The notes below the pieces were generated by a model, which saw nothing but the letters and a program-made list of their open reading frames with translations, was not told the origin of the DNA and ran no database searches. A program made the position numbers and the translations under genes. DNA of 27,561 nt from a virus: IMG/VR virus record IMGVR_UViG_3300035700_000359, positions 3,357 to 30,917 of that record; one strand, given 5' to 3'. Below are positions 1 through 24,500 of this stretch, piece by piece; the first letter of the stretch is position 1; every line of letters starts with the position of its first letter.

Positions 1-1
1 T

Positions 2-73
2 ATTAATCACACATATAAAGCAGTAGTACAGTTTATTGAAGAATATAATAAAAGTGAAAATGAGCTTAGTTAA
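2..73 (+). CDS. C-terminal end of an upstream gene (partial)
   Basis: An open frame enters from the left edge and ends with TAA at 71-73. The visible 23 residues are hydrophilic and end in ENELS. The frame overlaps the ATG of the next gene (60) by 14 bases, a short overlap like others in this window, which supports it as a real gene end. Too little is present to assign a function. Confidence 0.55.
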   Translation: MNHTYKAVVQFIEEYNKSENELS

Positions 74-926
74 AAAAGTAACTAGGAAATCTATGCTGAT
101 AAGATATTCAGGTAGAAGTTCTGATTATATAAGTCCTTCATTTGGATATGGATGTTTATTAAATTGTAGTTATTGTTATATGAAGCGTCATAAAGATCAA
201 GGTCTTGATGTTGCTACAAATATAGAAGATGTTTTAACTGCAGTAAATAATCATTCTGTCTTTGATACAGTAGAAAAGCCTAATCAGACAGACAAGGAGT
301 TCGTAACGTACGATATTAGTTGCAATGAAGACTTTGCTTTACATAGTAAATACTATGACTGGGAGAAAATATTTAAATTTTTTAGAGATCATAACAACGC
401 CAAAGCAACATTAGCAACTAAGATAATTCCTGATAACTTTCTAAAATTTAATCCTTTTGGAAAAGTTAGAATAAGGTTTAGCTTAATGCCTCAGAAATTA
501 AGTACTATTTTTGAGCCAAATACTCCAAAGATACTAGATAGGATAAAAGCAATAAATAGATTTTATAAAGCAGGATATGATGTTCATGTTAATTTTAGTC
601 CAGTGATATTATATAAGAACTGGGAAAAAGATTACATAGAGCTATTTGAAATGCTAAATAAATATGTTGATGATGACATAAAGAAAGATGTTTTAGCAGA
701 AGTAATATTCTTAACCCACAATAAATTAAAACATGAGACAAATTTAAAAAATAAATTAAAAAAAGAAAATATACTGTGGAATCCTAAATTACAAGAAAAT
801 AAAACTTCAGAATATGGAGGAAATAATGTAAGATATAAAAGGGATTTAAAAAGACATAGTATTAGACAATTTAAAAGAATACATAATGAAATTATACCTT
901 GGAATACAATAAGGTATATATTTTAA
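60..926 (+). CDS. Radical SAM protein, spore photoproduct lyase-like
   Basis: Probable radical S-adenosylmethionine enzyme of the spore photoproduct lyase (SPL) type, which reverses a UV-induced thymine dimer directly in DNA. The 4Fe-4S motif CLLNCSYCY gives Cys32, Cys36 and Cys39 (numbered from ATG 60), the CX3CX2C spacing of the superfamily, with Tyr after the third Cys as in SPL. A further Cys at 88, in DISCNEDF, sits where SPL carries its hydrogen-donor Cys. The stretch from about 140 to 200, with RFSLMPQKLSTIFEP, DRIKAI and AGYDVHVNFSPVI, follows the SPL core pattern. A TTG at 36 and a GTG at 54 are alternative in-frame starts; ATG 60 is preferred because its leader is A-rich like other starts here. 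The assignment is from remembered family motifs, so another radical SAM substrate is possible. Confidence 0.72.
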   Translation: MSLVKKVTRKSMLIRYSGRSSDYISPSFGYGCLLNCSYCYMKRHKDQGLDVATNIEDVLTAVNNHSVFDTVEKPNQTDKEFVTYDISCNEDFALHSKYYDWEKIFKFFRDHNNAKATLATKIIPDNFLKFNPFGKVRIRFSLMPQKLSTIFEPNTPKILDRIKAINRFYKAGYDVHVNFSPVILYKNWEKDYIELFEMLNKYVDDDIKKDVLAEVIFLTHNKLKHETNLKNKLKKENILWNPKLQENKTSEYGGNNVRYKRDLKRHSIRQFKRIHNEIIPWNTIRYIF

Positions 927-937
927 AAAATAAAAAA

Positions 938-1441
938 ATGAGAAAAAATTTTAGTGTACAAGCAAAGAAATATAATGGAGTACCAAATTCTCATAGTTTA
1001 CTTAGAGAATTTGCAATAGGAAAAAAAGCAATAGTTACATCAACAGTAGGAGGCCATAATTATGGTGAAGTAGGAACAACATTTATTATATCTGCATTTA
1101 ATGTTGCTGGAGGATCAAGAACTAATTTTACTTCAGCAAGTCATTTAATACCAACTGGAAATATTATTCCTTTTTCATCTTTTAGTGTTATTTTAGAAGA
1201 CACTTCAAAAGAAATTGAAGATAAAATTAAAGATTTAGAAAAAGAAAAAAAATCTGTAGTTAAAAAATTTGATGAACAAGTAAAAGAATGTAAATCTAAA
1301 TTAAGATTTCTAAAAGAAAATAAATTAGAAATATTTGATGAAGATGAGTTTAAAAGCTTTCAAGCATTTGAACTATTAGAAAATAATAGCTTATCTATTA
1401 TGGAGAAATCTAGAATATTAGCTAAAATAATAAAAGGTTAA
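938..1441 (+). CDS. Hypothetical protein with C-terminal coiled coil
   Basis: Not recognised. The frame is open from a TTG at 899 inside the previous gene, but ATG 938 has the usual A-rich leader and avoids the overlap, giving 167 residues. The first 85 residues look beta-rich and glycine-rich (GGHNYGEVGTTFIIS and VAGGSRTNFTSASHLIP). From about 88 to 135 there is a highly charged Lys/Glu helix compatible with a coiled coil (EIEDKIKDLEKEKKSVVKKF), and the end (LSIMEKSRILAKIIKG) is helical. It lies immediately upstream of the Sak4-like ATPase, so a role in DNA replication or recombination is possible from context only. Confidence 0.7.
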   Translation: MRKNFSVQAKKYNGVPNSHSLLREFAIGKKAIVTSTVGGHNYGEVGTTFIISAFNVAGGSRTNFTSASHLIPTGNIIPFSSFSVILEDTSKEIEDKIKDLEKEKKSVVKKFDEQVKECKSKLRFLKENKLEIFDEDEFKSFQAFELLENNSLSIMEKSRILAKIIKG

Positions 1442-1456
1442 TAAATGAAATAAAGA

Positions 1457-2221
1457 ATGAATTTACCAAGTAAAAAAGTAAAAGCAACTGGTGTAAATCC
1501 AGAAACAATGGTTATCTTTAGTCAACCTAAAATGGGTAAGACTTCAGCAGTAGCTAATTTAGAAAACTGTTTAATTGTAGATATAGAAAAAGGTAGTAAT
1601 TTTGTAGATGCTCTAAAAATTAATGTAATAGAGGAAGCTAAAAAAGAAAAAAAACTACCTATTGTAATATTAAAAAAATTAATTAACAGCATTGCTAAAA
1701 AAAATAAAGAAGCTGGAAAATATGTGTATCGTCATATTGCTTTAGATACAGTATCAGCGTTAGAAGAAATAGTAATACCATTAGCAGGTAGTATGTATAA
1801 ATCTACTCCTATGGGACGTAATTGGGAAGGAGACTCAGTCCTCACATTACCTCAAGGAGCAGGATATTATTACATAAGAGAAGCTTTAAATAACATTATT
1901 AATAGTCTAAGCAGTATTTGTGAAACATTAATAATATTAGGTCACGTTAAAGATAAGCTTATAGAAGTAGAAGGAAAGGAAATGAATGAAAGAGGTTTAG
2001 CTTTAGCAGGAAAATCACCAGCAATTATATGTTCTCAAGTAGATGCTGTAGGTTACTTTTATAGAGATGAAAACGAAGGAAGAATTAATTTCAAACCTTC
2101 TGAATCTTTATTATCAGGAACTAGAGTTAAGCATTTGAGAAATCAAGACATACTTCTTTCTGAATTTGATGAAGAAAAACAAGAAGTAGTGACGCATTGG
2201 GATAAAATTTTTAAAAACTAA
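1457..2221 (+). CDS. Sak4-like phage RecA-type ATPase (AAA_24 family)
   Basis: 254-residue P-loop ATPase of the kind found in phage recombination modules (Sak4/AAA_24), thought to act with an SSB in single-strand annealing or strand exchange. Seen: a Walker A at about 22-30 (SQPKMGKTS), a first beta strand ending in VDIEKG at 41-46, a Walker B strand HIALD at 93-97, and a later LIILGHVKDK strand with polar residues resembling sensor motifs. Length fits the family. The next gene, 18 bases downstream, is a likely single-stranded-DNA-binding protein, the partner normally encoded beside Sak4. Function is inferred from motif and context; a generic phage NTPase is the alternative. Confidence 0.75.
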   Translation: MNLPSKKVKATGVNPETMVIFSQPKMGKTSAVANLENCLIVDIEKGSNFVDALKINVIEEAKKEKKLPIVILKKLINSIAKKNKEAGKYVYRHIALDTVSALEEIVIPLAGSMYKSTPMGRNWEGDSVLTLPQGAGYYYIREALNNIINSLSSICETLIILGHVKDKLIEVEGKEMNERGLALAGKSPAIICSQVDAVGYFYRDENEGRINFKPSESLLSGTRVKHLRNQDILLSEFDEEKQEVVTHWDKIFKN

Positions 2222-2239
2222 TAAAAAAGAATAATATAT

Positions 2240-2827
2240 ATGATTAATTTAAATGAAGTAAAAGAAAAGTCCATTTCAATTTTTAATGGAGGTGAAGCAG
2301 GTGTAGCTAAAGGTAAGCTCACTAAAGTAGAAAAAAAGCAACCAGGTGATGCAGAAAGATCTCCTGATTTTAAAGTTTTTTTTGAGGATAAAGAAGGAGA
2401 AACTAATATTGCTTTTTTTGTACCAGATGGCCAAGATGAAGTTAAATCAAACAGAGAACTAGCAAGACTACTTAGTTTAGCTAGAGCTTATTTTGGAGAT
2501 GATTTTGAATTTCCAAAAGTAAAAAATTATAATGAAGCATATTCTGTTGTACTAAAAATGCTTAAAAAAGAATGTGTAGGAGAAGAATTTAACCTATTTG
2601 TATGTTATGGTTATGATGCTAAACCTAGTAGTTTTCTAGGAGTAAGAAAATTTGATTTTGTAGAATCAGGTAAAGTATCTATTGAAGATAGTAAACTAAA
2701 AGTTAAAAAATCAGATGTAATGGAAAGATTACAACCTGATGGTGCAGATAATAAAAAAGATTCAATTTTTGATGAATCTATGGAAGAATTAGGAGATGAT
2801 TTTGAAGATGAAGATGATATTATGTAA
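2240..2827 (+). CDS. Probable single-stranded DNA-binding protein
   Basis: 195-residue protein with a central region of alternating beta-like segments (FKVFFEDKEGETNIAFFVP; FNLFVCYGYDAKP) followed by a low-complexity acidic tail ending in DDFEDEDDIM. An acidic C-terminal tip is the hallmark through which bacterial and phage SSBs recruit partners. I see no clear sequence signature of an OB fold, so the call rests on the tail, the size and the position right after the Sak4-like ATPase. A strong terminator follows immediately, suggesting this ends a transcription unit. A recombination accessory protein is the alternative. Confidence 0.55.
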   Translation: MINLNEVKEKSISIFNGGEAGVAKGKLTKVEKKQPGDAERSPDFKVFFEDKEGETNIAFFVPDGQDEVKSNRELARLLSLARAYFGDDFEFPKVKNYNEAYSVVLKMLKKECVGEEFNLFVCYGYDAKPSSFLGVRKFDFVESGKVSIEDSKLKVKKSDVMERLQPDGADNKKDSIFDESMEELGDDFEDEDDIM

Positions 2828-2840
2828 TATCTTATAATAT

Positions 2841-2865
2841 AGGGGGGAATAATTTCCCCCTTTTT
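2841..2865 (+). terminator. Rho-independent terminator after the SSB-like gene
   Basis: GGGGGAA at 2843-2849 pairs with TTCCCCC at 2854-2860 around a four-base TAAT loop, and TTTTT follows at 2861-2865. The G/C blocks stand out in this AT-rich sequence. The hairpin begins 14 bases after the stop codon at 2827. The sequence AATATAGGGG on its left flank recurs at the terminator near 19780. Confidence 0.9.
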
Positions 2866-2883
2866 AATTAAATTTACAAAGAT

Positions 2884-3321
2884 ATGAAAGAAGAAATAAT
2901 TAAATTTCAAACAGCCAAATTAGCTAAAGAAAAAGGATTTAATAATTTAGATTATAGTAAGTATTTTTATACAAATCTAAGAAGTAAGATGTTTGGCATA
3001 GATGAAGAAAATAGAACTTACCCAATAGTAAATAAATCAAAAAAACTATACACAGTAGGATGTGATTTAGCTTTATATCTTAAAAATATAATTGAAGCAC
3101 CAACTCAATCTTTATTACAAAAGTGGTTAAGAGAAAAGCATAATATTATTGTGCTATTAGAACCAGTTTTAGGATTTAGTCATATAGAATTTTCAATGTC
3201 TATATACACTAAAAAAAATATATTTTCTTTAACTAAATTTCATGTTTCTTCAAATAAAACTTATGAAGAAGCATTAGAAGCAGGATTAATAGAAGGATTA
3301 AAGCTAATAAAAGGTTTATAA
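2884..3321 (+). CDS. Conserved phage hypothetical protein (PTQSLLQKWLRE motif)
   Basis: 145 residues, no known enzymatic motif. It opens with FQTAKLAKEKGFN, has a central PTQSLLQKWLREKHNIIV segment and ends with YEEALEAGLIEGLKLIKGL. This arrangement matches, from memory, a small uncharacterised protein common in phages and mobile elements of Bacteroidota, so it is useful as a host indicator rather than for function. It is the first gene after the terminator at 2841-2865 and its stop codon shares one base with the ATG of the primase (TAATG at 3319-3323), implying translational coupling. Confidence 0.75.
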   Translation: MKEEIIKFQTAKLAKEKGFNNLDYSKYFYTNLRSKMFGIDEENRTYPIVNKSKKLYTVGCDLALYLKNIIEAPTQSLLQKWLREKHNIIVLLEPVLGFSHIEFSMSIYTKKNIFSLTKFHVSSNKTYEEALEAGLIEGLKLIKGL

Positions 3322-4334
3322 TGTTAAATCTAAATAAAAAATTAGTAACTAAAGATGAACTATTAAAGCATGTAAGCCCATTAGATATATTTAATTTTTA
3401 TTCAGGACAAGAACTAAAATTAAAAAAAGTAACTTTATCTCCTTTAAGAGAAGAAAAAAATCCATCTTTTGCATTATTTGCATCAGGTAATGAGATATTC
3501 TTTAAAGACTTTGTATTAGGAGGTGGAGATTGTATAAAATTTGTTAAATTAATGTTTGGATTAAATTTCATGGATGCATTAAGTAAAATAGTAGTTGATT
3601 TTGATCTTAGAGATCATTTTCTATATAAAGAAGTTTATAGAACTGTAAATAATAACTTTAAAAAAGTAGATCAAAAAAAAGTTATTAAAGAACAAAATGA
3701 AACTATGCTTAACATAAAAAAAAGAAGATGGAAAAAGCATGATATTATGTTTTGGAGTAGTTTTGGTATTACATTTAATACCTTAAAACATTATAGAGTT
3801 TTACCTGTTGAATATATATTTTTAAATAATAATATAATAAAAGCAGATAAATATGCTTATGCTTTCATAGAAGAGAAAGATGGTATAAAAACTTATAAAA
3901 TATATCAACCATTCAATAACAAAATAAAATGGCTTACAACACACGATAATTCAGTATGGCAAGGTTGGGAACAACTTCCAGAATCAGGTTATAACTTAAT
4001 AATCACTAAATCTTTAAAAGATATTATGGCTATTACTTCTATAATGGGTATTAACTCAACTGGTTTACAAAATGAAGGAGTTAAACCAAAAGAAAGTATA
4101 GTTAAAGAATTAAAAAATAGATTTGAAAACATATATTTACTATATGACAATGATTTTGATTCAGAAACTAACTGGGGTAGACAATTTGGAGAAAAAATAA
4201 GTAAACTTTTAGATGTTCCTCAAATAGAAATTCCTAGTAAATATAAATGTAAAGACTTTTCTGATTTAATACAAAAAAAAGGAATAGAAAAAAGTAAAAT
4301 AATTTTAAATAATATAATAAAATATGATAACTAA
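3321..4334 (+). CDS. DNA primase-like protein with Toprim domain
   Basis: 337 residues that follow the DnaG-type layout. The N-terminal part (about 36-75) reads LSPLREEKNPSFALF, then FKDFVLGGGDCIKFV, the contour of the CHC2 zinc-binding domain but with the zinc cysteines and histidine missing. The Toprim fold begins near 225 (LIITKSLKDIMAI) and includes a strand ending LLYDNDFDS near 272-280 that supplies the Asp-X-Asp metal ligands, then CKDFSDLIQKKG near the end. The first Toprim acidic position is replaced within TKSLKD, as I recall for primases of Bacteroidota phages. No helicase domain is fused. It would prime DNA replication in the host cytoplasm. Confidence 0.8.
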   Translation: MLNLNKKLVTKDELLKHVSPLDIFNFYSGQELKLKKVTLSPLREEKNPSFALFASGNEIFFKDFVLGGGDCIKFVKLMFGLNFMDALSKIVVDFDLRDHFLYKEVYRTVNNNFKKVDQKKVIKEQNETMLNIKKRRWKKHDIMFWSSFGITFNTLKHYRVLPVEYIFLNNNIIKADKYAYAFIEEKDGIKTYKIYQPFNNKIKWLTTHDNSVWQGWEQLPESGYNLIITKSLKDIMAITSIMGINSTGLQNEGVKPKESIVKELKNRFENIYLLYDNDFDSETNWGRQFGEKISKLLDVPQIEIPSKYKCKDFSDLIQKKGIEKSKIILNNIIKYDN

Positions 4335-4335
4335 A

Positions 4336-4749
4336 ATGGAAGAAAATAGAACATTAATAGCTGTATATGGCAGTTTAAGAAAAGGATTAAGTAATCATCC
4401 TATAATAGTATCAGCTTTGTATGTAGGAGACTTTACTTCAGATCCTGTTTTTAAAATGTACGATTTAGGTGCATATCCAGCAATTACACATGGAGGAAAT
4501 TCTAGTATAGAGTTTGAAGTCTATGCAGTTAATGCTAAGGAATTAGGAGAAGTCAATTCTTTAGAAGGTTTTCATGAAGGAAGAGAAAATAATTATTATG
4601 ACAGAGCTATAATTAAATCCCCTTACGGGAAAGCTTATTATTTCTTTTTTTCTGAATCAGGAAAATTAAGTCATAATTTAGATAACGCAGGGTTAGAAGT
4701 AGAAAGTGGAAATTGGAAAGATCACCATACAACTAAAATAGCAAATTAA
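4336..4749 (+). CDS. Gamma-glutamylcyclotransferase-like protein
   Basis: GGCT/AIG2-like fold enzyme, which releases gamma-glutamyl groups as 5-oxoproline by intramolecular attack. From ATG 4336 the protein has 137 residues: the substrate-loop motif VYGSLRKG (10-17) and a LEGF segment whose Glu77 is the likely catalytic acid, followed by YYDRAI. The size fits single-domain members. An in-frame ATG at 4324 would overlap the primase by 11 bases; 4336 gives a one-base gap and matches the family's short N-terminus. It opens the amide-ligase cassette, and GGCT-like genes beside ATP-grasp and amidoligase genes are a recognised association, so its target is probably a gamma-glutamyl bond made or left by that pathway. 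Confidence 0.82.
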   Translation: MEENRTLIAVYGSLRKGLSNHPIIVSALYVGDFTSDPVFKMYDLGAYPAITHGGNSSIEFEVYAVNAKELGEVNSLEGFHEGRENNYYDRAIIKSPYGKAYYFFFSESGKLSHNLDNAGLEVESGNWKDHHTTKIAN

Positions 4750-4750
4750 T

Positions 4751-5620
4751 ATGAGACCAAAATATAAATTATTCAGACCAAGAGTTAGGACTAGACACCC
4801 CTCACACTCTGCATTAAGACCAGTTCATCAAAACTTACCTTTATTACCTTTTAGATCAATTATTAGATTAGGTTCTACTACAAGTATAAGAGCTTTAGCA
4901 AGTAATAGAAACGTTAGAGTAGAAGTAAATTCAGTTGATTCTATTAAAAACAGTTCTAATAAACTGTTGATGAAACAATGCTTTACACAAAAAGAAGTAA
5001 ACACTGCAGCTTGGTGGACTTATAATGAGATAGAAGAACTTTTTATTCCTGAATTTTCAAATGAAGAATTAGAAATGGCTTCTTTAGAAGATTTATCTTA
5101 TCCTATTATATCTAAAAATATATATGGTAGTAGAGGTACTGGTAATAAAAAGCATGATACTCCAGAATCTTTAAGAGATTGGATGGAAAATAAATTTTTA
5201 GATAATTATATATTTGAAAAGTATCATAACTATGTTAGAGAATATAGACTTCATGTAGATTCAGAAGGATGCTTTTACTCATGTAGAAAAATGCTTAAAT
5301 CAGATACTCCTCAAGAATCTAGATGGTATAGAAATAACGATCATTGTGTTTGGATAATGGAAACAAATGACTTATTTGATAGACCATCAAATTGGGATGA
5401 AATAGTATCACATTCTGTTAATGCTTTAAAAGCAGTAGGACTTGATGTAGGAGCTGTAGATTTAAGAGTACAATCATCTACAAATTCAGATGGAGAAAGT
5501 AGAGCAAACCCAAAGTTTATAGTAATAGAAATTAACTCTGCTCCTAGTTTTGGAAAAGTTACAGAAGAGAAATATATAGAACAATTACCAAAAATTTTAA
5601 ATAGAAAATACAATGATTAA
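4751..5620 (+). CDS. ATP-grasp ligase (phage type)
   Basis: 289-residue ATP-grasp enzyme, which activates a carboxylate as acyl-phosphate and joins it to an amine. Seen: an adenine-contact strand YPIISKN with Lys122, a Gly-rich loop GSRGTG at 126-131, the hinge IFEKY with Glu157, EYRLHV at 164-169, and the metal-binding end AVDLRV (Asp237) and VIEINSAPSFG (Glu260, Asn262). The first 50 residues are Arg-rich and contain RLGSTT, an N-terminal region seen in phage members. The start is one base after the GGCT stop (TAATATG). It overlaps the next gene by eight bases. The substrate is unknown; by context it should add an amino acid or peptide to a product handled by the neighbouring ligases and amidotransferases. 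Confidence 0.85.
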   Translation: MRPKYKLFRPRVRTRHPSHSALRPVHQNLPLLPFRSIIRLGSTTSIRALASNRNVRVEVNSVDSIKNSSNKLLMKQCFTQKEVNTAAWWTYNEIEELFIPEFSNEELEMASLEDLSYPIISKNIYGSRGTGNKKHDTPESLRDWMENKFLDNYIFEKYHNYVREYRLHVDSEGCFYSCRKMLKSDTPQESRWYRNNDHCVWIMETNDLFDRPSNWDEIVSHSVNALKAVGLDVGAVDLRVQSSTNSDGESRANPKFIVIEINSAPSFGKVTEEKYIEQLPKILNRKYND

Positions 5621-6347
5621 AGGAAAAAGAGTATTAGTAGGATTATTAGGACATAAACATTCAGGTCAATACAATGATGGATATGGGCAAAATGAAGCTT
5701 ATATAGAATTTTTTAGAAAATATGGGGATGTAATTATTATTGATTCTCAATGTGAAACAGTAATACCAGTAGATTTATTAGTATTACCAGGAGGAAGAGA
5801 TGTAAATCCTATAAGATACGGAGAAAAGCCAGGTATGCAAACTCAACCTCCCGATTTAGAATATGAATGGTTTTTTGCAAATATGTTTAAGCACTATTTA
5901 AGTAGAGCGAAAAATTTTGACACAGCAATATATGGAATATGTGCAGGATTTCAAAATTTAGTTGTAGAATTTGGAGGAAGTTTACAGCAAAGTTATACTC
6001 AAAAACAATCCACTAAATTTAGAGGAGAATTAGTTGATAGGTTAAAACTAAATGATAAATATCTTTTAGAAGACCCTATGATGAGTAAAAACTATAAATC
6101 TTATAAGTTTAAAAATAATTACAATGAAACTAATTCTATACATCATCAAGCTGCTTTAGAATCTGATGTTACTACAGATTTTATTATTGTAGCTACAAAT
6201 AAATTATATGATAATGTAGAATTTATTATTCATAAGGAATTACCTATTGCTGCAGAGCAGTCTCATCCTGAAGAAAGAGTACAGCCTTTATTAACACACA
6301 GTTTATTAGACAATTTAATTTTTAAAATAACTAAAAATAATGAGTAA
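5613..6347 (+). CDS. Class I glutamine amidotransferase-like hydrolase (peptidase C26 type)
   Basis: 244 residues of the class I amidotransferase fold, closest to gamma-glutamyl hydrolase/PuuD-like members. Seen: LPGGRDVNPIRYGE at 58-71, the nucleophile elbow GICAGFQ with Cys110, an HHQ motif at 177-179 and EQSHPEE with the triad His218 and Glu220. All three catalytic residues are therefore present. Such enzymes cleave a gamma-glutamyl amide or release ammonia from glutamine for a partner ligase. It overlaps the ATP-grasp gene and, by eight bases, the following unknown gene, so the three are likely co-translated. Whether it hydrolyses a peptide or supplies ammonia cannot be told from sequence. 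Confidence 0.85.
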   Translation: MIKGKRVLVGLLGHKHSGQYNDGYGQNEAYIEFFRKYGDVIIIDSQCETVIPVDLLVLPGGRDVNPIRYGEKPGMQTQPPDLEYEWFFANMFKHYLSRAKNFDTAIYGICAGFQNLVVEFGGSLQQSYTQKQSTKFRGELVDRLKLNDKYLLEDPMMSKNYKSYKFKNNYNETNSIHHQAALESDVTTDFIIVATNKLYDNVEFIIHKELPIAAEQSHPEERVQPLLTHSLLDNLIFKITKNNE

Positions 6348-7008
6348 TATATTAATAATTTCAAAAAATGAAGAAGAACAAAAAAAATTTAAATTTTTAG
6401 AAGACAGCTCTCATGACATAAAAAATTTATTAGGTATTAATACTAGAATTGATACATCAACTGATTTTTTAAAAATTTTAGATACTAACAAAGAAAATTT
6501 TCAAAAAGCTGAAGTTATTATAATTTCTGATATAAAAGTATATACTAATTTTTTAAGACGTTCTAATGTATTATCAAATGTTTATTTTCCTAATTTAAAA
6601 GAAATAATATTTTCTCCTTTAAATGAGTCAATGTTTAATCTTTTATTAGATCATTTACCTTATGATTTTTATAGTTCAAAATATAATATTAAATTAGATG
6701 AATATCTTTTATTTTCTAAAATAAAAAAAGATAGTAAAGGTAAATATAAAATTTTAAGTAATATTAATGTAAAGCTTAAAGGAAATGTTACTTTTTTTCT
6801 TAGCAATACTATACAAGATAATGAAATTTATTTAAATAGAGTATTTTCTAAAAATAAATTTTTATCTTTTTACAAAAAATTTGAATATCTTTTACCTTCT
6901 GGAAAAACTATAAATAAAACAGTAATAACGCCAATAAATAATTTTGAAAAAAGTAGTTCAAATTTATTAAAAACATCAATAATTAACTTTTTAAATAATA
7001 TAAAATGA
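6340..7008 (+). CDS. Unknown protein inside the amide-ligase cassette
   Basis: 222 residues with no family I recognise. The N-terminus (MSNILIISKN) and AEVIIISD near 58-65 look like beta strands of an alpha/beta fold. The rest is Lys/Asn/Phe-rich, with no conserved Cys/His cluster and no transmembrane segment. The gene is even more AT-rich than its neighbours, with long Lys, Asn and Leu codon runs. It overlaps the amidotransferase upstream by eight bases and the amidoligase downstream by four (ATGA), and it ends in TGA, the only non-TAA stop in the window. Its position suggests a scaffold, carrier or substrate for the cassette, but that is context only. Confidence 0.75.
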   Translation: MSNILIISKNEEEQKKFKFLEDSSHDIKNLLGINTRIDTSTDFLKILDTNKENFQKAEVIIISDIKVYTNFLRRSNVLSNVYFPNLKEIIFSPLNESMFNLLLDHLPYDFYSSKYNIKLDEYLLFSKIKKDSKGKYKILSNINVKLKGNVTFFLSNTIQDNEIYLNRVFSKNKFLSFYKKFEYLLPSGKTINKTVITPINNFEKSSSNLLKTSIINFLNNIK

Positions 7009-7796
7009 TAGACAAAGTAAAAGTAGGAGCTGACCCAGAATTATTTTTAACTAAAAATGGAAAACCTTTTTCAGCTGAAGGTATTATAGGAGGAAGTAAA
7101 GATGAACCTAAATTAACTGAAATTGAGGGATGCTGTTTACAAGAAGATAACGTAATGGCTGAATTCAACATAACTCCTTCTGAAAATGAAGAAGATTTTA
7201 ATGAGAATATAGATTTTATGCTTGATACTATATCTACTATTGCATTAGTTAATGATTGTGAAATCATGATAAAACCTTCTGCAATTTTTGAAAAAGATCA
7301 ATTAATAACTAGTCAAGCTATGGAATTTGGGTGTAGTCCTGATTTTAATGCTTACAATTTCATGGAAAATGAAAGAGTAGAAATTAAAGAAAACCTTAGA
7401 GCTGCAGGAGGGCATATCCATATTGGTTATGAAAATCCAACTAAAAATATCAGCTTACAAATAGTAAGGGCTTTAGATATATTTTTAGGGCTTCCTTCTT
7501 TATTTTTAGATGATGATACAAGAAGAAGACAGTATTATGGAAATGCAGGAGCTTACAGAGAAAAAACTTATGGAGTAGAATATAGAACTTTATCTAACTT
7601 TTGGATTCAAACAGAAGAGTTAAGACTATGGGCATTCAGACAAGTTATGTTAGCTATTGATTTTGTATCTAGTGGGGAAATTCTAAAAGTAACTGATAAG
7701 CAGTGGGGAGACATAGAATTAGCTATTAATGACAATGATAAAAGCTTAGCAAGTGCTATAGAACAACAATTAATAAAAACAAAAAAAGAAAATTAA
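7005..7796 (+). CDS. phiEco32-type COOH-NH2 ligase (amidoligase)
   Basis: 263-residue ligase of the glutamine-synthetase-like fold described from phage phiEco32 (COOH-NH2 ligase type 2). Seen: GADPELFL at 8-15, VMAEFN at 50-55 with an acidic metal ligand, AAGGHIHIG at 133-141, and RRRQYYGNAGAYREK followed by YGVEYRTLSNFW between 173 and 200, all diagnostic for the family. These enzymes are predicted to form amide bonds between amino acids, peptides or protein side chains using ATP. It overlaps the unknown gene by ATGA and is separated by one base from the class II amidotransferase (TAATATG). It differs clearly from the second amidoligase at 9786. Confidence 0.88.
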   Translation: MIDKVKVGADPELFLTKNGKPFSAEGIIGGSKDEPKLTEIEGCCLQEDNVMAEFNITPSENEEDFNENIDFMLDTISTIALVNDCEIMIKPSAIFEKDQLITSQAMEFGCSPDFNAYNFMENERVEIKENLRAAGGHIHIGYENPTKNISLQIVRALDIFLGLPSLFLDDDTRRRQYYGNAGAYREKTYGVEYRTLSNFWIQTEELRLWAFRQVMLAIDFVSSGEILKVTDKQWGDIELAINDNDKSLASAIEQQLIKTKKEN

Positions 7797-7797
7797 T

Positions 7798-9780
7798 ATG
7801 AATTATTTACTAAGCCAAGATACGTTAAATATGTTAGTACTAATAATTAGTATGTTTTTACTAACAATTATGGTTAATGCTATAATTAGATTAGTTAAAA
7901 GAGCACAAGGGAAGAAAGTAAATCAACCTACTACTTTAAATTGTGGTATTTTTGCTTGGGCAGGAAAAAATACTAAAAAATTCAATAAGTCAAAGTTTGA
8001 TATTTTAGGTATTTACAATGACGCAAGAGGAGGACAAGGTTCTGGTATCACTAAAAATGGAGATATTTTTAAAAGCTCAAAACCTTCTAAATATAAAGAC
8101 TTTTTAACAGATATAAACTATGATAATGATTTAGAATCTCCTGTTATATTTGGGCATACTAGAAAAAGTTCTAGTGGATCTGTAAACGCTAAAAATAATC
8201 ATCCTTTTGGATTTGGATTTACTCAAGAAAAAGGATTTGAATTTACAGGAGTTCATAATGGAACTCTTTACAATGAAAATGATTTAGCAAGAAAATTTGA
8301 AGCAGATAGAAGTAAAATAGACAGTCACATTTTATTAGAATGTATTTACAAAAGTAAAAGTTTTAAAGTTTTAAAAGATTATGTAGGGGCAGCTGCATTA
8401 GTATTTTATAATTTAAATGATCCAAATGTTTTATATGTATTTAGAGGGGAATCTTCTAAATATGAAAGTGATAAAACTACAGAGCCAGAAAGGCCTTTAT
8501 TTTATTACCAAGAAACTAGAAATAGTCTTTATATATCTTCTATAGAAAATTCTTTAATAGCAATTACAGAAAAACAAGAAGATATTTTAAATATAGAAGA
8601 ATTTGAAACTAACATTGTTTATAAAATTACAGATGGTAATGTTAAAAAAGCTATTAAATTTAAAATAAATAGAAAAAATTCTTTTCAGAGAGAATATTAT
8701 TCTAATTATAGTAATAATAGTAATATGGATTGGACAGGACAAAATCACCAAGCATTTAGAAATAAAGCTGAAAGTAAGTACCCTTCGAGCTCAAATAGTC
8801 GTATTTCAGATAAAAAAACTAGAAGAGGAAATTCTGGATCTAATACTGAAAAAGTTTTCAAAATAAAAAATGAAAGTCATACTAATGCTGACAGAAAAGG
8901 AGGAAATCCTATATGGGAGAAGTTTAATTATACTAGGAATGGTCATCCAGTTACAGGTATTTTTATTAACACTCTTGAAGAAGGATTACTTCGTCTTGAT
9001 GAAGACTATGTAGATGCTGTTCAAATATTTAATGAAAAATATCTAGGTAAAGTATTTGATTTACAAAGTCAAACATACTTAGATACATTAGATCAAATAG
9101 ATCATAATCATTACTATATACCTTTTATGAAATCTACTATTAATAAAGATTCTATGCCTTTTGTTTATATTGTAGATGGAATTAGAGTTTGTCACAGGCA
9201 AGATTATGAAGCTATTTCTTTAAATGATGATTTACTTTCAGGTCTAGAATATGCTAGCTATTATCCTATGTTGAATACAAAAGGATTAGTAACACATAAA
9301 GGATCTATAGTAAATCATATAAGATTTAGTCCAATAGGTAGTAAATATGTTTATACTGTTTTAGATGGAGAAGTAACTTCAAGAAAAAGGAAAAATAATG
9401 AAGATATATTAGCTTATTATTTTCCTTCAGTTACTATTAAACAAGCTGGAGAAAAAACTAAAAAGAAAGAAGTAAAAACTTTAACTTTAGGAGAAAATAC
9501 TGTTTTTGAAGAATGTTTTAAAGAACTTGAAAAAAATGATGTAGAAGTGAATAATACATGTGAAATTTTTAATCTTCCTGAAAAAAAAACAACAGAAGAA
9601 GACATAGAAAGAACACAGAATATTCAAAAAATAAAATATTTTTCTAATGTATATTTAATGAAAAAAAGAGAGTCTTTAGAAAAATTAAATCCTAATGCAG
9701 AAGCTAAAGGAATTATAAATTTGATCGACAAATTTGTAACTGATATTGCAAAAGTCAACGTTAAAAAATTAAAATATTAA
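7798..9780 (+). CDS. Membrane-anchored class II glutamine amidotransferase domain protein
   Basis: 660 residues. Residues 10-33 form a hydrophobic transmembrane helix followed by a basic stretch (RLVKRAQGKK), predicting a cytoplasmic C-terminal body. The class II (Ntn) amidotransferase domain starts at CGIFAWAG with Cys49, and has RGGQGSG at 77-83, GHTR at 119-122 and HNGT at 153-156, matching the nucleophile, glutamine-binding and oxyanion motifs. Family members need an N-terminal Cys; here it lies 48 residues in, with Asn before it and no internal ATG, so cleavage is implied if it is active. Residues 285-355 are Asn/Ser-rich linker; 360-660 is an unrecognised domain with a charged C-terminal helix. 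It probably supplies ammonia, or removes an amide, for the adjacent ligases. Confidence 0.8.
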   Translation: MNYLLSQDTLNMLVLIISMFLLTIMVNAIIRLVKRAQGKKVNQPTTLNCGIFAWAGKNTKKFNKSKFDILGIYNDARGGQGSGITKNGDIFKSSKPSKYKDFLTDINYDNDLESPVIFGHTRKSSSGSVNAKNNHPFGFGFTQEKGFEFTGVHNGTLYNENDLARKFEADRSKIDSHILLECIYKSKSFKVLKDYVGAAALVFYNLNDPNVLYVFRGESSKYESDKTTEPERPLFYYQETRNSLYISSIENSLIAITEKQEDILNIEEFETNIVYKITDGNVKKAIKFKINRKNSFQREYYSNYSNNSNMDWTGQNHQAFRNKAESKYPSSSNSRISDKKTRRGNSGSNTEKVFKIKNESHTNADRKGGNPIWEKFNYTRNGHPVTGIFINTLEEGLLRLDEDYVDAVQIFNEKYLGKVFDLQSQTYLDTLDQIDHNHYYIPFMKSTINKDSMPFVYIVDGIRVCHRQDYEAISLNDDLLSGLEYASYYPMLNTKGLVTHKGSIVNHIRFSPIGSKYVYTVLDGEVTSRKRKNNEDILAYYFPSVTIKQAGEKTKKKEVKTLTLGENTVFEECFKELEKNDVEVNNTCEIFNLPEKKTTEEDIERTQNIQKIKYFSNVYLMKKRESLEKLNPNAEAKGIINLIDKFVTDIAKVNVKKLKY

Positions 9781-9785
9781 TAATT

Positions 9786-11525
9786 ATGACAAGAAAAGTA
9801 ATGACCATTAATGGCTGTATAGAAAAAATTACAGACTGTAAAAAAATAGAAGGGGACTATTATAAAATAGGAGATAGAAAAATAGAAAATTCTGGGGATT
9901 GTTATATTATTAATGGCAGACATTTTAAAAGTAATACAGGATATATTATTTTTGATAATTATAAAAAACAATATGAAATAGCTAATTCCTTATATACAAA
10001 AGGAGTAATTAGAATAGATGAAAATAATAATTTTGTTATAGGTATGTTTTTAGAAAATAACTTACAATGCCTTGTTAAAGAAAAAGGAAGTTCAACAATA
10101 TTGAAAGCAATGAACTACACTATATTTGATAATAGTAATTTTGTTGTTAATAAAAAAACAGAAGTATTTACTCATAAAAATGATTTAAGGCTAGAAGATT
10201 ATTTAAATTATGAAAAAGTTAATTCAGATTTAAAAAGGTCTTTAAATTATAATATTACTAATGAAGCCATACAATCTTCTAAAAAAAGTATGGAAGAATA
10301 TAGTAAATACTTACCTAAATATAATTTTGCTAAAGGAGTTAGTAAATATTTAAATGATTTAACTTTTGGTTTAGAATTTGAAACTACTGAAGGTACGATT
10401 CCTATAAGATATTGTGCTGCAAGTGGAGTAGTTCCATTAAGAGATGGAAGTATTAGAGGATTAGAATATGTAACTTTACCTTTACAAGGAGAAGATGGAG
10501 TTAATAAAATAATGAATATTAGTAAATTATTAAATACTTATACTAATTATGATCATAGCTGTTCTTTACATTTACATTTAGGTAATATACCTAGAACAGA
10601 AAGTTTTATTGTAGCATTATTTAGAACATTAGCTATGGTAGAAAATGATTTCTTTGATATGTTTCCACTTTACAAAAAAATAAATGCAGGATTTAAAAAT
10701 AAAAATTATACTGCCCCTTTACCTTGTAAAAATTTATTGAATAAAATGGATTCTAAAATAGATTCTTCTAATGTAAGTAAGAATTTTTCTTATTTATTTG
10801 AATATTTGTCTAATGGAGAATCTTATTCTAATTATGGAAATAGTTTAGACAAAGTACACTCTCATCCGTATGATCCTGATAACAACAGAAAATGGAATGT
10901 AAGATCACGTTATCATTGGGTAAATCTTATACCATTAATATTTGGTAATAAGCAAACAGTTGAGTTTAGAATCCATACTCCTGTAAAAGATCCTGATAAA
11001 GTTATGTTATTTTTATTAATGTGTTCTAAATTAGTAAATTTTGTAAAATCTAATGAAAAAGATATTTTAAGTAATAAATTTAACAATTTAGATCTTAAAT
11101 TTATATTAAATCACAAAAATACTAATTTACATTTTGAAGGAAAATTAAATTTTTTTATTTTAAATTATTTTTCTACTAGAAAGCAATTTACTACTCAACA
11201 GTATCAAAAAAGTAATTTTAATTATTCAGAACAAGAATTTGAGTTTAAATCTACTAAATCTTTTAGAAGTGACACAGTGTATTTTTTAAATGAAGATAAT
11301 TTAAATGATAAAAATACTGGTACAACTCAAAAAGCACTTGAAAATTTTATGACTAATTTAGAAAATGAAGTACCAGCTTATAGAAATGAAGGGACAGTAA
11401 GGGGAAGACGTTCAAGTAGACAACCTTTTACAGAAATAGATACTGAAGCTACTTCTACAGAACCTACAGCTTCTTCTAGTTGGTATGATATGGCAAGACA
11501 AAGAATTAATAATAGCGAATCTTAA
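9786..11525 (+). CDS. Second amidoligase (Amidoligase_2-like) with N-terminal extension
   Basis: 579 residues. The catalytic core spans about 190-420: FGLEFET at 194-200, LRDGSIRGLEYVT at 218-230, SLHLHLG at 260-266 and RYHWVNLIPL then TVEFRIH at 375-397. These Glu, His and Arg motifs match the amidoligase branch of the glutamine-synthetase-like superfamily (Amidoligase_2). The first 190 residues form an extra region with Cys11, Cys18 and Cys39 and repeated short strands (YYKIGDRKI; CYIINGRHF), which I cannot assign. The last 90 residues are polar and likely disordered (RGRRSSRQPFTEIDTEATS). It closes the cassette, five bases after the amidotransferase. Presumed reaction: ATP-dependent amide bond formation; substrate unknown. 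Confidence 0.85.
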   Translation: MTRKVMTINGCIEKITDCKKIEGDYYKIGDRKIENSGDCYIINGRHFKSNTGYIIFDNYKKQYEIANSLYTKGVIRIDENNNFVIGMFLENNLQCLVKEKGSSTILKAMNYTIFDNSNFVVNKKTEVFTHKNDLRLEDYLNYEKVNSDLKRSLNYNITNEAIQSSKKSMEEYSKYLPKYNFAKGVSKYLNDLTFGLEFETTEGTIPIRYCAASGVVPLRDGSIRGLEYVTLPLQGEDGVNKIMNISKLLNTYTNYDHSCSLHLHLGNIPRTESFIVALFRTLAMVENDFFDMFPLYKKINAGFKNKNYTAPLPCKNLLNKMDSKIDSSNVSKNFSYLFEYLSNGESYSNYGNSLDKVHSHPYDPDNNRKWNVRSRYHWVNLIPLIFGNKQTVEFRIHTPVKDPDKVMLFLLMCSKLVNFVKSNEKDILSNKFNNLDLKFILNHKNTNLHFEGKLNFFILNYFSTRKQFTTQQYQKSNFNYSEQEFEFKSTKSFRSDTVYFLNEDNLNDKNTGTTQKALENFMTNLENEVPAYRNEGTVRGRRSSRQPFTEIDTEATSTEPTASSSWYDMARQRINNSES

Positions 11526-11535
11526 ATTTTAAACA

Positions 11536-12225
11536 ATGGTAAACTTAAATGAAACAGTACTAGGAACTGAATTAGCTAAATGGGATAAGTATTTAGATAA
11601 TTTTAGAGATACAAATTATTTTAAGAAGTTAAAATTGTTTTTAAAAGAAGGAAGTAGATCAAAAAAGTTTAACACTTCGATTTTTGAAGTGTTTAAACCT
11701 TTTGATATGGTTGATCCTTCTAAATTAAAAGTAGTTATTCTTACTGACACTAAACATATACATGGAGGTTTACCTTATGGTAAAATGTATAATTCTTCTT
11801 TTGATCATGAAAATCTAGAAATAGAAACTATTAAAAATAGTATAGAGCTTCAATTTAAAGAAGGTTTAAATATGGATTTTGATGACAGTTTAGAATCTTG
11901 GGCAAATCAAGGTGTTCTTATTTTGAATTCTTCTTTAACTCATAGTTCAGAAGGAAAAGACTTATACTATAAAGTATGGAGAAGATTTAATGCTCATATA
12001 ATAAAATGCCTAGTTAAAAATTATACAGGAATACATTATGTATTTATGGGTGGTAAATCTATTTACTATAGAAAGCACGTTAAAAGTGCTTCTAATTATG
12101 TCTACAATGTTAGTAAACCAGAAAAGCGAAGTGTAGTAAACTTTAGCGCATTTAAAGAAATTAATAAAAAAATTCTTGAACAAAATGGAGAAGAATTTAT
12201 GATAAATTGGACAGATTATCAATAA
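11536..12225 (+). CDS. Uracil-DNA glycosylase-like protein with altered active-site motifs
   Basis: 229 residues with the frame of family 1 uracil-DNA glycosylase, which excises uracil from DNA. The motif WANQGVLILNSSLT (122-135) is a near-perfect match to the family. The catalytic water-activating motif, normally GQDPYHGPGQAHG, appears as LTDTKHIHGGLPYG (69-82), keeping Asp71 and the downstream glycines but losing Gln, Pro and Tyr. The C-terminal HPSPLS motif is represented by NVSKPEK (191-197) before VNFSAFKEIN, so the catalytic His seems absent. The fold is likely conserved but activity is doubtful or modified. Phages of Bacteroidota often carry divergent versions. It sits at the start of the DNA-repair and dNTP gene run, consistent with keeping uracil out of an AT-rich genome. 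Confidence 0.78.
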   Translation: MVNLNETVLGTELAKWDKYLDNFRDTNYFKKLKLFLKEGSRSKKFNTSIFEVFKPFDMVDPSKLKVVILTDTKHIHGGLPYGKMYNSSFDHENLEIETIKNSIELQFKEGLNMDFDDSLESWANQGVLILNSSLTHSSEGKDLYYKVWRRFNAHIIKCLVKNYTGIHYVFMGGKSIYYRKHVKSASNYVYNVSKPEKRSVVNFSAFKEINKKILEQNGEEFMINWTDYQ

Positions 12226-12248
12226 TTTAAAACAAAAAATATGAAAAC

Positions 12249-12716
12249 ATGATATTTATACCTGGGAATGTACCCAGTTTAAAAAACAGTAAAGTTAAAA
12301 CTAGTAGGGGGATATTTAGTTCCCCTACAGTTAACAAATACATTAGAAAATTAGGAATACAATCATTCAGTTCCTCTAAAAAGTATATAAAAGGTTATGT
12401 TGACAAAGACAGACCAAATAAATTTGAAGCTTTTAGAGAAGAGTTTAATAAAATGAAAAGTAATAAAACTGATCCTATATTTATAGGGTATCACCAAGTT
12501 AGAAATTCAAAAAGATTATTTGATTTTAGTAACAGCGTTGAACTTATACAAGATTTATTAACTGCTCATGATTTTATTGAAGATGATAATGTTAAGTATG
12601 TATTTCCTATACCAATGACTAATAAAGGAGTATTGCCAACTCCTAATAATATTAGAAAAAATGAATGGTATTCAGTAGATAAGGAAAATTCAGGAGTGTA
12701 TTTAAAAATATTTTAA
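12249..12716 (+). CDS. RusA-like Holliday junction resolvase family protein
   Basis: 155 residues. The N-terminus IPGNVPSLKNSKVKT matches the strand and Lys-rich loop that open RusA proteins, and RLFDFSNSVELIQDLLTAHDFIEDDNVKYV (about 96-125) matches the catalytic segment, whose pattern is DLDN, then a helix with Asp, then DD. Here the first motif reads DFSN, so one of the paired acidic residues is Ser; Asp in IQD and the DD pair remain. RusA cuts four-way junctions made during recombination. ATG 12249 is chosen because the RusA strand starts at residue 2. Two GC-rich hairpins lie in its first 80 bases. Activity cannot be assumed given the substitution. Confidence 0.7.
   Translation: MIFIPGNVPSLKNSKVKTSRGIFSSPTVNKYIRKLGIQSFSSSKKYIKGYVDKDRPNKFEAFREEFNKMKSNKTDPIFIGYHQVRNSKRLFDFSNSVELIQDLLTAHDFIEDDNVKYVFPIPMTNKGVLPTPNNIRKNEWYSVDKENSGVYLKIF
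12262..12328 (+). other. Two consecutive GC-rich hairpins at the start of the RusA-like gene
   Basis: CTGGG (12262-12266) pairs with CCCAG (12273-12277) around six bases. Then GTAGGGG plus GA (12304-12312) pairs with TTCCCCTAC (12320-12328) around seven bases, with one G-T pair. Both lie within the first 80 bases of the coding sequence. Neither is followed by a T-run, so they are not terminators; a translational or RNA-processing role is possible. Chance cannot be excluded. Confidence 0.4.
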
Positions 12717-21598: not shown

Positions 21599-24500
21599 TT
21601 AAAATCCAAATGATGATTTATTACTAAGATTATAAATTTTATGATAATCTTTCATAAATTCTTTTACTCCAGGAGTTCTTTTTCCTACATTCTTAATAAA
21701 CTTATCAAAATTTTCAGGATCTACTAAATCTTCTCCGTTAAGTACATCACCCATTTCAAATAATACTCCAATTGTATCTCCAAAATCTTTAAATAATCTT
21801 GTAGCAGGAACTGGAGATTTAAGAATTTTTAATAACTCTGGAATACTATAGAATTGAGAAAGTTCCATTTCTAATCTTCTCATTTGATATAAAGTAAATC
21901 CTAATACTGCGCTATCATCATCATCAAATGCTGCAGAAAGTAAAGAAGTAAGAAGAGGTATTATAACTAAAGTTAAAGCAAATTCTCCACTAGCTTGAGT
22001 TATATTAGCTTTTTCATGTTGAGATAAAGTTCCCCAATGCGCTTTTAATGCTTGCATTCCCATTTCTCTACTTTTTATTGCACTAAGAATAAATCTTACT
22101 AAACTAGTATAAAATCCTTCTTCATATTCTTGTAATGAGCTGTTAAAAGTTCTTTGATCTTCTCTTAAATCCTCTTTATTTACAGCTACATTATCAATAT
22201 TTTTAAATCTTCTATTAAAAGAATCATAAAAATATTTTCTAAACATACCAACAAATTTCCAATACCAGTGTCTATAAAGTTCAGCTCTAGTTTTTTGCTT
22301 ATAGTTACCTACTATATCATAAGTTTTATTATCTATAAGATTTTTAATTTTAGTTTTACCTCCTTTATCAAATTCCGTTAATTTGTTAAATTTAGTAAAT
22401 ACTAATTTATCAGATACTACTAATTTTTTATTCTTATCTTGGCTAAACATCTCTAACATAGTAGCAGCTTCTTTTTCAGTAGCTACTATTTTGCCTTCTT
22501 TATTTATATAGTTATAGTCCTTATCTCTAACTGCAATTCCATCTAAAATAGATAAAACCATAGTACTTTGAATCCAATGCTCTCCAGAAGCTTGTGTTAC
22601 TTGTCTTGCTTCTTTTGTTAGTCCTTTTTTAGCTAAAGTAGATGCTAGGAAATCACCAGCTTCTCCCATTAAATTTCCTTCTAAATCAAAATATTCATTA
22701 ATTTGATTTACTATAGATTCATTTATAGGTCTAGTAACATCTGCCATAGTTTGTTTTAAATGTTTAGCATAGAATTTTTCAGAATTTTTTATATTCTTAG
22801 ATTTTATAATATCCCCTGCTATAAAACTTTCTAAAAATAATTGAGTTTTAGTGTTAGTAACGTTTGCAAATCCTTGACCTAAATTTAAAGGCAATGATAC
22901 AAAAGAAGCTAATCCTGTAATTTTAGATGCAACTTTATTAGCATCAGCATTAAGAATAGGAACTTTTACTCCATTTTTATTTAATACATCGTAAAATTGT
23001 TGCTCATTTAAATTTTTAAGCATCTTATACATATTACTATTAGCAGCATTCTCAGTGAATTCAAATTTACCTGTATTAGTATTTTTACTATTTTGACTTC
23101 CTTTCTGAAGATAAATAGGCTTATAATAAGCAACATCTAATAAAGTAGAAAACTCAAGTTCTACTTCTCTTCTGTTTTTGTATCTATTTATATTTTTAGC
23201 TTCTAGTCTAAATATAGTAAATAAATCTAAAGATTGATCTTTAGCTTTCATTTTATTATCTCCTGTTCCATCTCTAAAATGTAAAGGAATTTTAAATACT
23301 TCTTTACCTGCTGCATCATATTCTGTGTTAACAAATCCAACATCATCAGATCTTACTGTACTTAAATCTTTATATCCTTCTTTAACTTCATCTAATATAT
23401 TACCATTATAAGCTCTTTCTAATGCACTCTTATATATTTTAGGTAAACCATAAAAAACAACATTTTTGTTTTTATACATATAAGTATTTAATCCTTGTCT
23501 TCCATATATTGTATTGTTTCCTTCATCATTTTTAGATTTAAAATAATCTAAAACTTCTTTTTCAATAGTAGAAAGATTAGAATAAGAGTTTTTATATTTA
23601 TCTAAAACTTGAAATTCATCTACTTTATCAACAAAATATTTAGTTTTTAAAGCTTTGTATTCTTTATCTAATTTATTAAATTCTTCATCTGTCTCTTCTA
23701 GTTCTTGAAGCTTATATCTTATAGTGCTCATCCTCTTACTAGCCTCTAATACTTCTAATTTATAATCACTTAATAAGTAAGGAACTCCAGTAGAATCAAA
23801 TTGTAACATATTTTTAAACATCTTGTTTATATTGCTACTACCTTTTTCATCTCTTAATTTTCTAAATAAGACTTTAACTCTTTGATCCTCTTCCATATCT
23901 TCTTGAATCTCTCTATCTTGCATTTCATTTAGTCTATGTTGATATAGTTGAATTAACTTGTCAGAAGCTTTTAAACCATTACCTAGAGAAGCACTCATTG
24001 CACTTATATCTTTAGAAGGATCATTAAATAATTTATTTACTTCTTCTTCTACTTCTTCTTGAATTCTTTCTCTATCTCTACCTGCCATTTGTCTTAAAAC
24101 CCAAGTATCTTTATCTCCTTTTATATTATTAGCAGAATATTCTTTTTCTAATCTTTCTCTATTTCTATACTCTACATTTGGAAAATACTTTACATCAGAT
24201 AATTTCTTAGTAACATAAGATAGTTGATAATCTTTAAAAGAATTTTTTACATTTTCAAAACTAGTAGATACTTCAGTTAACACATCAATAGCCTCCTGCA
24301 ACTCGTTATCTTTAATTCCTTCTATAGATTTATCAGGACGAGCCTTATAAGTAGAAAGAACAGATTTCATTACAGGAATGCTAGAGAATGATTTTATATA
24401 ATTTTCATAGAATGTTAAAACAAATTCTAAATCAGATAATTCATTAGTATCAAGATTATCTAGTTGATTATTTAAATAACTTAAATTATTTTTTGCTTCA

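Follow-up and report, generated by a model that had tools for sequence, protein, structure and literature searches.

A phage amidoligase cassette in a crAss-like viral fragment, with a class II amidotransferase that carries a membrane helix

The window analyzed here, 27,561 nucleotides of IMG/VR virus record IMGVR_UViG_3300035700_000359 (positions 3,357 to 30,917 of a 30,917-base record), contains a copy of an already known phage amidoligase cassette: genes matching PF14395 and PF12224, an ATP-grasp ligase, a class II glutamine amidotransferase and a gamma-glutamylcyclotransferase lie on one strand among replication genes. Its class II amidotransferase has a membrane helix ahead of the catalytic cysteine, a new feature of which no description was found in the literature consulted so far. 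The cassette occupies positions 4324-11525 of the window, where seven plus-strand open reading frames (ORFs) are separated by gaps of 1-5 nucleotides or overlap by 4-8. The ORF listing agrees with the initial annotation on the position and strand of all seven, and Pfam, PHROG and NCBI-family matches agree with it on the families of six.

4324-4749, plus strand: GGCT, a gamma-glutamyl(amine) cyclotransferase of YtfP/AIG2-like type (PF06094, E 9e-13)
4751-5620, plus strand: ATP-grasp ligase (phrog_2599, E 4e-33; TIGR00768, RimK family, E 1e-10)
5613-6347, plus strand: GAT1, a class I glutamine amidotransferase/peptidase C26 (PF07722, E 6e-19)
6340-7008, plus strand: orphan ORF lacking cysteine, between GAT1 and CNL2
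7005-7796, plus strand: CNL2, a phiEco32-like COOH-NH2 ligase type 2 (PF14395, E 2e-15; phrog_3815, E 5e-76)
7798-9780, plus strand: GAT2, a class II (Ntn) glutamine amidotransferase (PF13522, E 5e-10)
7816-7905, plus strand: membrane helix of GAT2, amino acids 7-36, upstream of the catalytic Cys codon (maximum Kyte-Doolittle value 2.7)
9786-11525, plus strand: AML2, an Amidoligase_2 protein (PF12224, E 2e-5; phrog_2443, E 3e-33)

For each family, 45-75 dereplicated homologues from viruses were aligned to judge residue conservation, and the objection that most of these genes might have lost catalytic residues falls away because the window retains almost all positions conserved at >85%, the known catalytic ones included. 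GGCT scores 49 bits where the PF06094 cut-off is 22.8, keeps the YGxL motif (Y15, G16, L18) and the catalytic Glu81, and has E. coli YtfP (1xhs, E 4e-21) as its nearest solved structure. The GAT1 triad Cys110-His218-Glu220 is intact, CNL2 keeps E12, E53, H137, H139, R185, E192 and R194, and AML2 keeps E197, E199, H262, H264, E393 and R395. The ATP-grasp protein keeps K71, E164, R166, H168, K180, D237, E260 and N262, yet at 41 bits against a TIGR00768 cut-off of 143 it falls outside the RimK family of alpha-L-glutamate ligases, and its matches make it a distant relative of RimK, LysX and cyanophycin synthetase rather than a family member. Sequence comparison of CNL2 and AML2 with solved structures gave no meaningful match. 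The AML2 model has a fold like that of glutamine synthetase and glutamate-cysteine ligase at amino acids ~190-430, with a beta-rich N-terminal domain (1-130) and a disordered tail (501-579), and 49 of its top 50 matches in the PDB are relatives of those two enzymes.

The orphan ORF, fourth in the row, stands apart. Searches of Pfam, PHROGs, the phage collection and the viral contigs turned up no relative of it, it is AT-rich (GC content 16.8%, 5.4% at third positions), and its only positional counterpart is in the nearest relative, locus L030 (BLAST E 0.009 in a single comparison). We treat it as lineage-specific and outside the conserved system, so that of the seven-gene cassette in the initial annotation the six enzyme genes stand and the orphan drops out. 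Another locus, L011, carries two tandem GAT1 genes at the corresponding position. That the orphan ORF is a decayed second class I amidotransferase was considered and rejected, as it has no profile similarity to the cassette families (best hhalign probability ~1%).

Viral contigs were scanned with the two ligase families, giving 22 and 80 loci; the dereplicated set, with the window and annotated phages included, numbers 80. GAT2 is present in 77 of these, CNL2 and AML2 in 76 each, the ATP-grasp ligase in 75, GGCT in 59 and GAT1 in 49. The CNL2 and AML2 counts are partly a matter of construction because the loci were fetched by one or the other, while the remaining four are independent of retrieval. 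A core of ATP-grasp, CNL2, GAT2 and AML2 forms a single run in 68 of the 80 loci, always on one strand in the locus listing and in at least four different orders; most of the 12 loci lacking such a run are interrupted by contig ends, though in L018, L024 and L029 a core gene seems genuinely absent. The families co-occur far beyond chance, and this co-conservation, together with the intact catalytic residues, upholds the proposal that the genes work as one unit. The further claim that this phage carries an unusually complete version does not hold. All six enzymes are found in 30 of the 80 loci, and a 2017 study of Pseudoalteromonas phages described, for RIO-1-like phages, a 'peptidoglycan modification cassette' of seven genes that is common to phiEco32, 7-11, PA11, tf, MR299-2, LUZ24, PaP3 and CW02 (PMC5498523). 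UFV-P2 and PaP3 carry the same genes. In several relatives HNH endonuclease-like ORFs or gaps, identified by eye, break or separate cassette genes (L030 10741-11737, L010 7393-7908, L012 7432-7956, L043 8696-9549 and L028 5772-6794), with AML2 split in L030 and GAT1 split in L043 and L028, which suggests repeated invasion by homing elements.

In cells the system is nearly absent. A scan with CNL2 motifs through the genomes of 84,980 species of bacteria and archaea yielded just three relatives, all on metagenome-assembled contigs, and the two viewed by eye have phage-like gene content. On a contig binned as an archaeon (L112, 10758-13533), CNL2, AML2 and GAT2 lie beside ORFs that by eye are IMPDH/GMP reductase-like and PurA/PurZ-like, and because of these neighbors the contig may belong to a phage with modified purines.

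GAT2 comprises an Ntn domain (~49-290), a second beta-rich domain (~360-535) and a helical C-terminus. R77, N154, G155 and D175 are kept in the window and in 98-100% of 74 relatives; these correspond to the residues with which PurF and GlmS hold the alpha groups of glutamine and the oxyanion. In fold the protein resembles GFAT, PurF and EgtC, the last a gamma-glutamyl hydrolase. The catalytic Cys49 (codon TGT, 7942-7944) is preceded by a 48-residue extension (7798-7941). The AlphaFold model shows a helix at 7-36 with confidence, followed by a linker of low confidence that leads into the Ntn domain; the initial annotation, too, has this protein as membrane-anchored. Positive charges in the basic linker lie on the C-terminal side of the helix and suggest that the enzyme part faces the cytoplasm. 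An extension of 26-48 residues with a strong hydrophobic helix before the catalytic Cys is present in 18 of the 74 GAT2 proteins, those of the window and phi14:2 included (the loci besides the window are L030, L012, L032, L039, L010, L044, L048, L015, L017, L014, L011, L080, L071, L028, L027, L026 and L045), and in 51 the Cys directly follows a Met able to serve as start. In the 18 the residue at -1 to the Cys is never Met and that at -2 is always Leu, Ile or Phe. Translation starting right at the Cys of the window protein was rejected, there being no start codon directly before Cys49. Known class II amidotransferases require a free N-terminal Cys, and cleavage just before Cys49 is therefore predicted. 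In a catalytic-domain tree, a quick one with many weak branches, the helix and Met-Cys states switch at least 10 times and alternate in close relatives; all 18 helix-bearing proteins fall in the larger main clade (40 rows) and none in the podovirus-type clade (31 rows).

The cassette directly follows a primase gene, and two features bear on how it is transcribed.

2841-2862, plus strand: intrinsic-terminator-like hairpin upstream of primase and cassette, the sole plus-strand site of its kind in 1-12300
3321-4334, plus strand: DNA primase of Crassvirales type, with CHC2 zinc ribbon and Toprim (PF01807, E 1.6e-4)

The primase matches 144 records. Most of these are from crAss-like phages or other phages of Bacteroidota, and Cellulophaga phage phi14:2 gives the best match, at 41% identity. 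By these matches the window would be a Crassvirales fragment, in or near that order and Asinivirinae-like, and the host is a Bacteroidota-type bacterium. The start of the GGCT ORF overlaps the end of the primase ORF by 11 nucleotides and the only plus-strand hairpin sits upstream of both, so primase and cassette are probably transcribed together, the hairpin being the likely upstream end of the unit. The scan of 1-12300 found nine terminator-like hairpins where shuffled sequences gave 2.0, several of them overlapping at 2841-2862. Sigma-70-like promoter sites did not exceed the level in shuffled sequence, no structured RNA or tRNA was found, and PADLOC annotated no relevant defense system. Nucleotide-metabolism genes surround the cassette in the window and DNA metabolism genes come after it. 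Beside the replication genes is a radical SAM protein of spore photoproduct lyase type (36-926; PF20903, E 1e-24). At 21599-27457 on the minus strand is a 1952-amino-acid protein that has a zincin-like motif, HEALH, but matches nothing in Pfam or PHROGs; it may be a polyvalent protein or part of the virion.

The reading favored here, to which we give about an even chance of being right, is that the cassette specifies an early cytoplasmic pathway of gamma-glutamyl ligation and release, acting on an amine of a host-derived substrate in the infected cell. It is favored because the kinships of GAT2, AML2 and the ATP-grasp ligase, together with GGCT and the C26 protein, make up what is elsewhere a toolkit for adding and removing this group. 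Gamma-glutamyl groups are added and then removed by the ligase EgtA and the hydrolase EgtC in ergothioneine synthesis, by the ATP-grasp BtrJ and the cyclotransferase BtrG in that of butirosin, and by PuuA and PuuD in putrescine use. In the phage, CNL2 and AML2, with their putative glutamine synthetase/glutamate-cysteine ligase fold, and the RimK-like ATP-grasp protein would use ATP to couple glutamate, or else a different amino acid, with an amine of the substrate; GAT2 and GAT1 would hydrolyze glutamine or gamma-glutamyl groups, either to provide ammonia or as a trimming step, and GGCT would release a terminal gamma-glutamyl cap in the form of 5-oxoproline. In the lineage of the window GAT2 would be made with its helix ahead of the Cys and become active only once cleaved at that residue, which would place at least its activation on the membrane's inner side. 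We infer that glutamate is the group joined, and likewise the direction of the steps, the host origin of the substrate and the cleavage before Cys49. Early expression may be expected by analogy with SU10, whose ATP-grasp, amidotransferase and YtfP proteins are listed as early gene products (PMC4281155).

Several points weigh against this pathway. No phage member of the cassette families has an established substrate or product, the fold matches of AML2 are weak (best E 0.007, TM <0.4), and the RimK match of the ATP-grasp protein is far under the family cut-off. Several cassettes lack GGCT or GAT1 in the stretch examined, and the release step is for that reason not universal. The phage-restricted distribution was gauged with two short degenerate motifs, so that distant cellular copies could be missed. 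A bolder version seems rather unlikely to us, namely that the cassette is a phage-exclusive gamma-glutamyl-conjugate pathway with no cellular counterpart, in which the GAT2 of one large clade is a membrane-tethered zymogen whose transmembrane propeptide is cut exactly before the Cys, with 10 or more gains or losses of this switch. A cassette-encoded carrier peptide or small-protein substrate was also considered and rejected, no small-protein family (≥35 amino acids) being common to the cassette types.

The published guess is that such cassettes modify peptidoglycan precursors, stem peptide or lipid II, and so block later phage entry (superinfection exclusion). It is stated, as a prediction only, in PMC5498523 and PMC10580990, with Iyer and Hardies cited; PMC10580990 reports an amidoligase and an amidotransferase in phages of OM43 marine bacteria and credits the phiEco32 prediction to Iyer et al. 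2009, which, as far as its citation there goes, is the earlier comparative-genomics prediction invoked in the initial annotation. The isolate hosts among the matches listed are peptidoglycan-bearing Gram-negative bacteria, and the membrane helix of the 18 GAT2 proteins would fit work near lipid II, but the soluble forms predominate and the cassette includes neither a Mur-ligase partner nor a periplasmic or lysis gene; no Mur-ligase domain was found among the window genes, and hence none beside the class I amidotransferase as amidation of the MurT-GatD type would have it. A gamma-glutamyl group must be terminal and free for GGCT and C26 hydrolases to act on it, whereas D-Glu is internal in peptidoglycan, and this counts against the proposal. 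Moreover the Kuravirus receptor is O-antigen (PMC11990801), which changes in peptidoglycan would not mask. Peptidoglycan modification, a prediction only, is rather doubtful. Among the candidate substrates first proposed, we rank the side chain of a virion protein last: the relatives are early genes (PMC4281155) and sit with replication rather than late genes, and detection of the SU10 proteins is no sign that they belong to the virion because the sample was a polyethylene glycol-concentrated lysate, not CsCl-purified virions (PMC4281155). We give virion modification hardly any credence.

Two further possibilities take their cue from the neighborhood. Recycling of host amides, in which glutathione-like and gamma-glutamyl compounds are broken down so as to supply the pools of nucleotides and amino acids, accords with the nucleotide-metabolism genes around the cassette, with the cleavage of gamma-glutamyl bonds by relatives of GGCT, C26 and class II amidotransferases, and with a mention of host material recycling in PMC5498523; yet the cassettes keep together three ligases that depend on ATP and have intact sites, and as these would be needless, recycling by itself is inadequate and we judge it improbable. 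Attachment of an amino acid or amide to a base, guarding phage DNA from restriction, is suggested by the primase that adjoins the cassette in two distinct lineages and the UDG-type gene that does so in crAss-like ones, and by the Gordonclarkvirinae, which resist restriction-modification with no known modification pathway (PMC11990801) and of which Bas86, for example, carries PF14395. However, DNA of the cassette-bearing phage tf is cut by RsaI, HpaI, EcoRV, SmaI and HaeIII (PMC3517423), restriction profiling was among the means used to map the termini of phiEco32 (PMC9965538), and no base-modifying gene was recognized in the window, which is a genome fragment. A DNA-modification role for the cassette is unlikely, and hypermodification that protects against restriction we consider very improbable.

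Two ideas are thus weakened, the exceptional status of this copy and a part in DNA modification. The cassette has been kept together, though rearranged, in phages of Pseudomonas, Escherichia, Vibrio, Cellulophaga and Leptolyngbya, and identifying its product would expose a biochemical function common to very different phages. The helix-bearing form of GAT2, which predicts proteolytic activation and a membrane-proximal site for it, is a concrete and testable way in.

Among known systems, the EgtA/EgtC, BtrJ/BtrG and PuuA/PuuD pairs share folds with the cassette, EgtC being the one matched by GAT2, but belong to cellular pathways with known products, and the kinship seen is one of fold. RIO-1, PSA-HP1, phiEco32, LUZ24, PaP3, tf and CW02 have, like the window, two amidoligases, an ATP-grasp ligase, a class II amidotransferase and GGCT among replication genes. 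The order in PaP3 (CNL2-AML2-GAT2-ATP-grasp-GGCT) differs from that of the window, however, and the podovirus-type class II amidotransferase starts Met-Cys with no membrane helix. Podovirus-type cassettes also include a PaP3p47-type gene that is absent from the window; its family (~190-220 amino acids, no known function), found at L004 6782-7360 and in 28 further loci (29 in all), always inside such cassettes near CNL2 and AML2, is a candidate extra component. Leptolyngbya phage Lbo-JY46 (PP438436), a cyanophage not assigned to Crassvirales, has the six enzymes in one run, but in another order, with additional class I amidotransferases and a GAT2 that lacks the helix. The uncultured crAss-like phage cr108_1 (NC_055878) has ATP-grasp, class I amidotransferase, CNL2, GAT2 and AML2 between primase and UDG as the window does; GGCT was not found in it, two additional unknown proteins are present and its GAT2 begins Met-Cys. 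The nearest annotated relative is Cellulophaga phage phi14:2 (Steigviridae, Asinivirinae), whose g037-g041 lack the class I amidotransferase and the orphan ORF but which otherwise has primase, GGCT, ATP-grasp (51% identical), COOH-NH2 ligase, membrane-helix class II amidotransferase, Amidoligase_2, UDG and RusA in identical order. To the known cassette the lineage of the window thus contributes the membrane-anchored version of GAT2.

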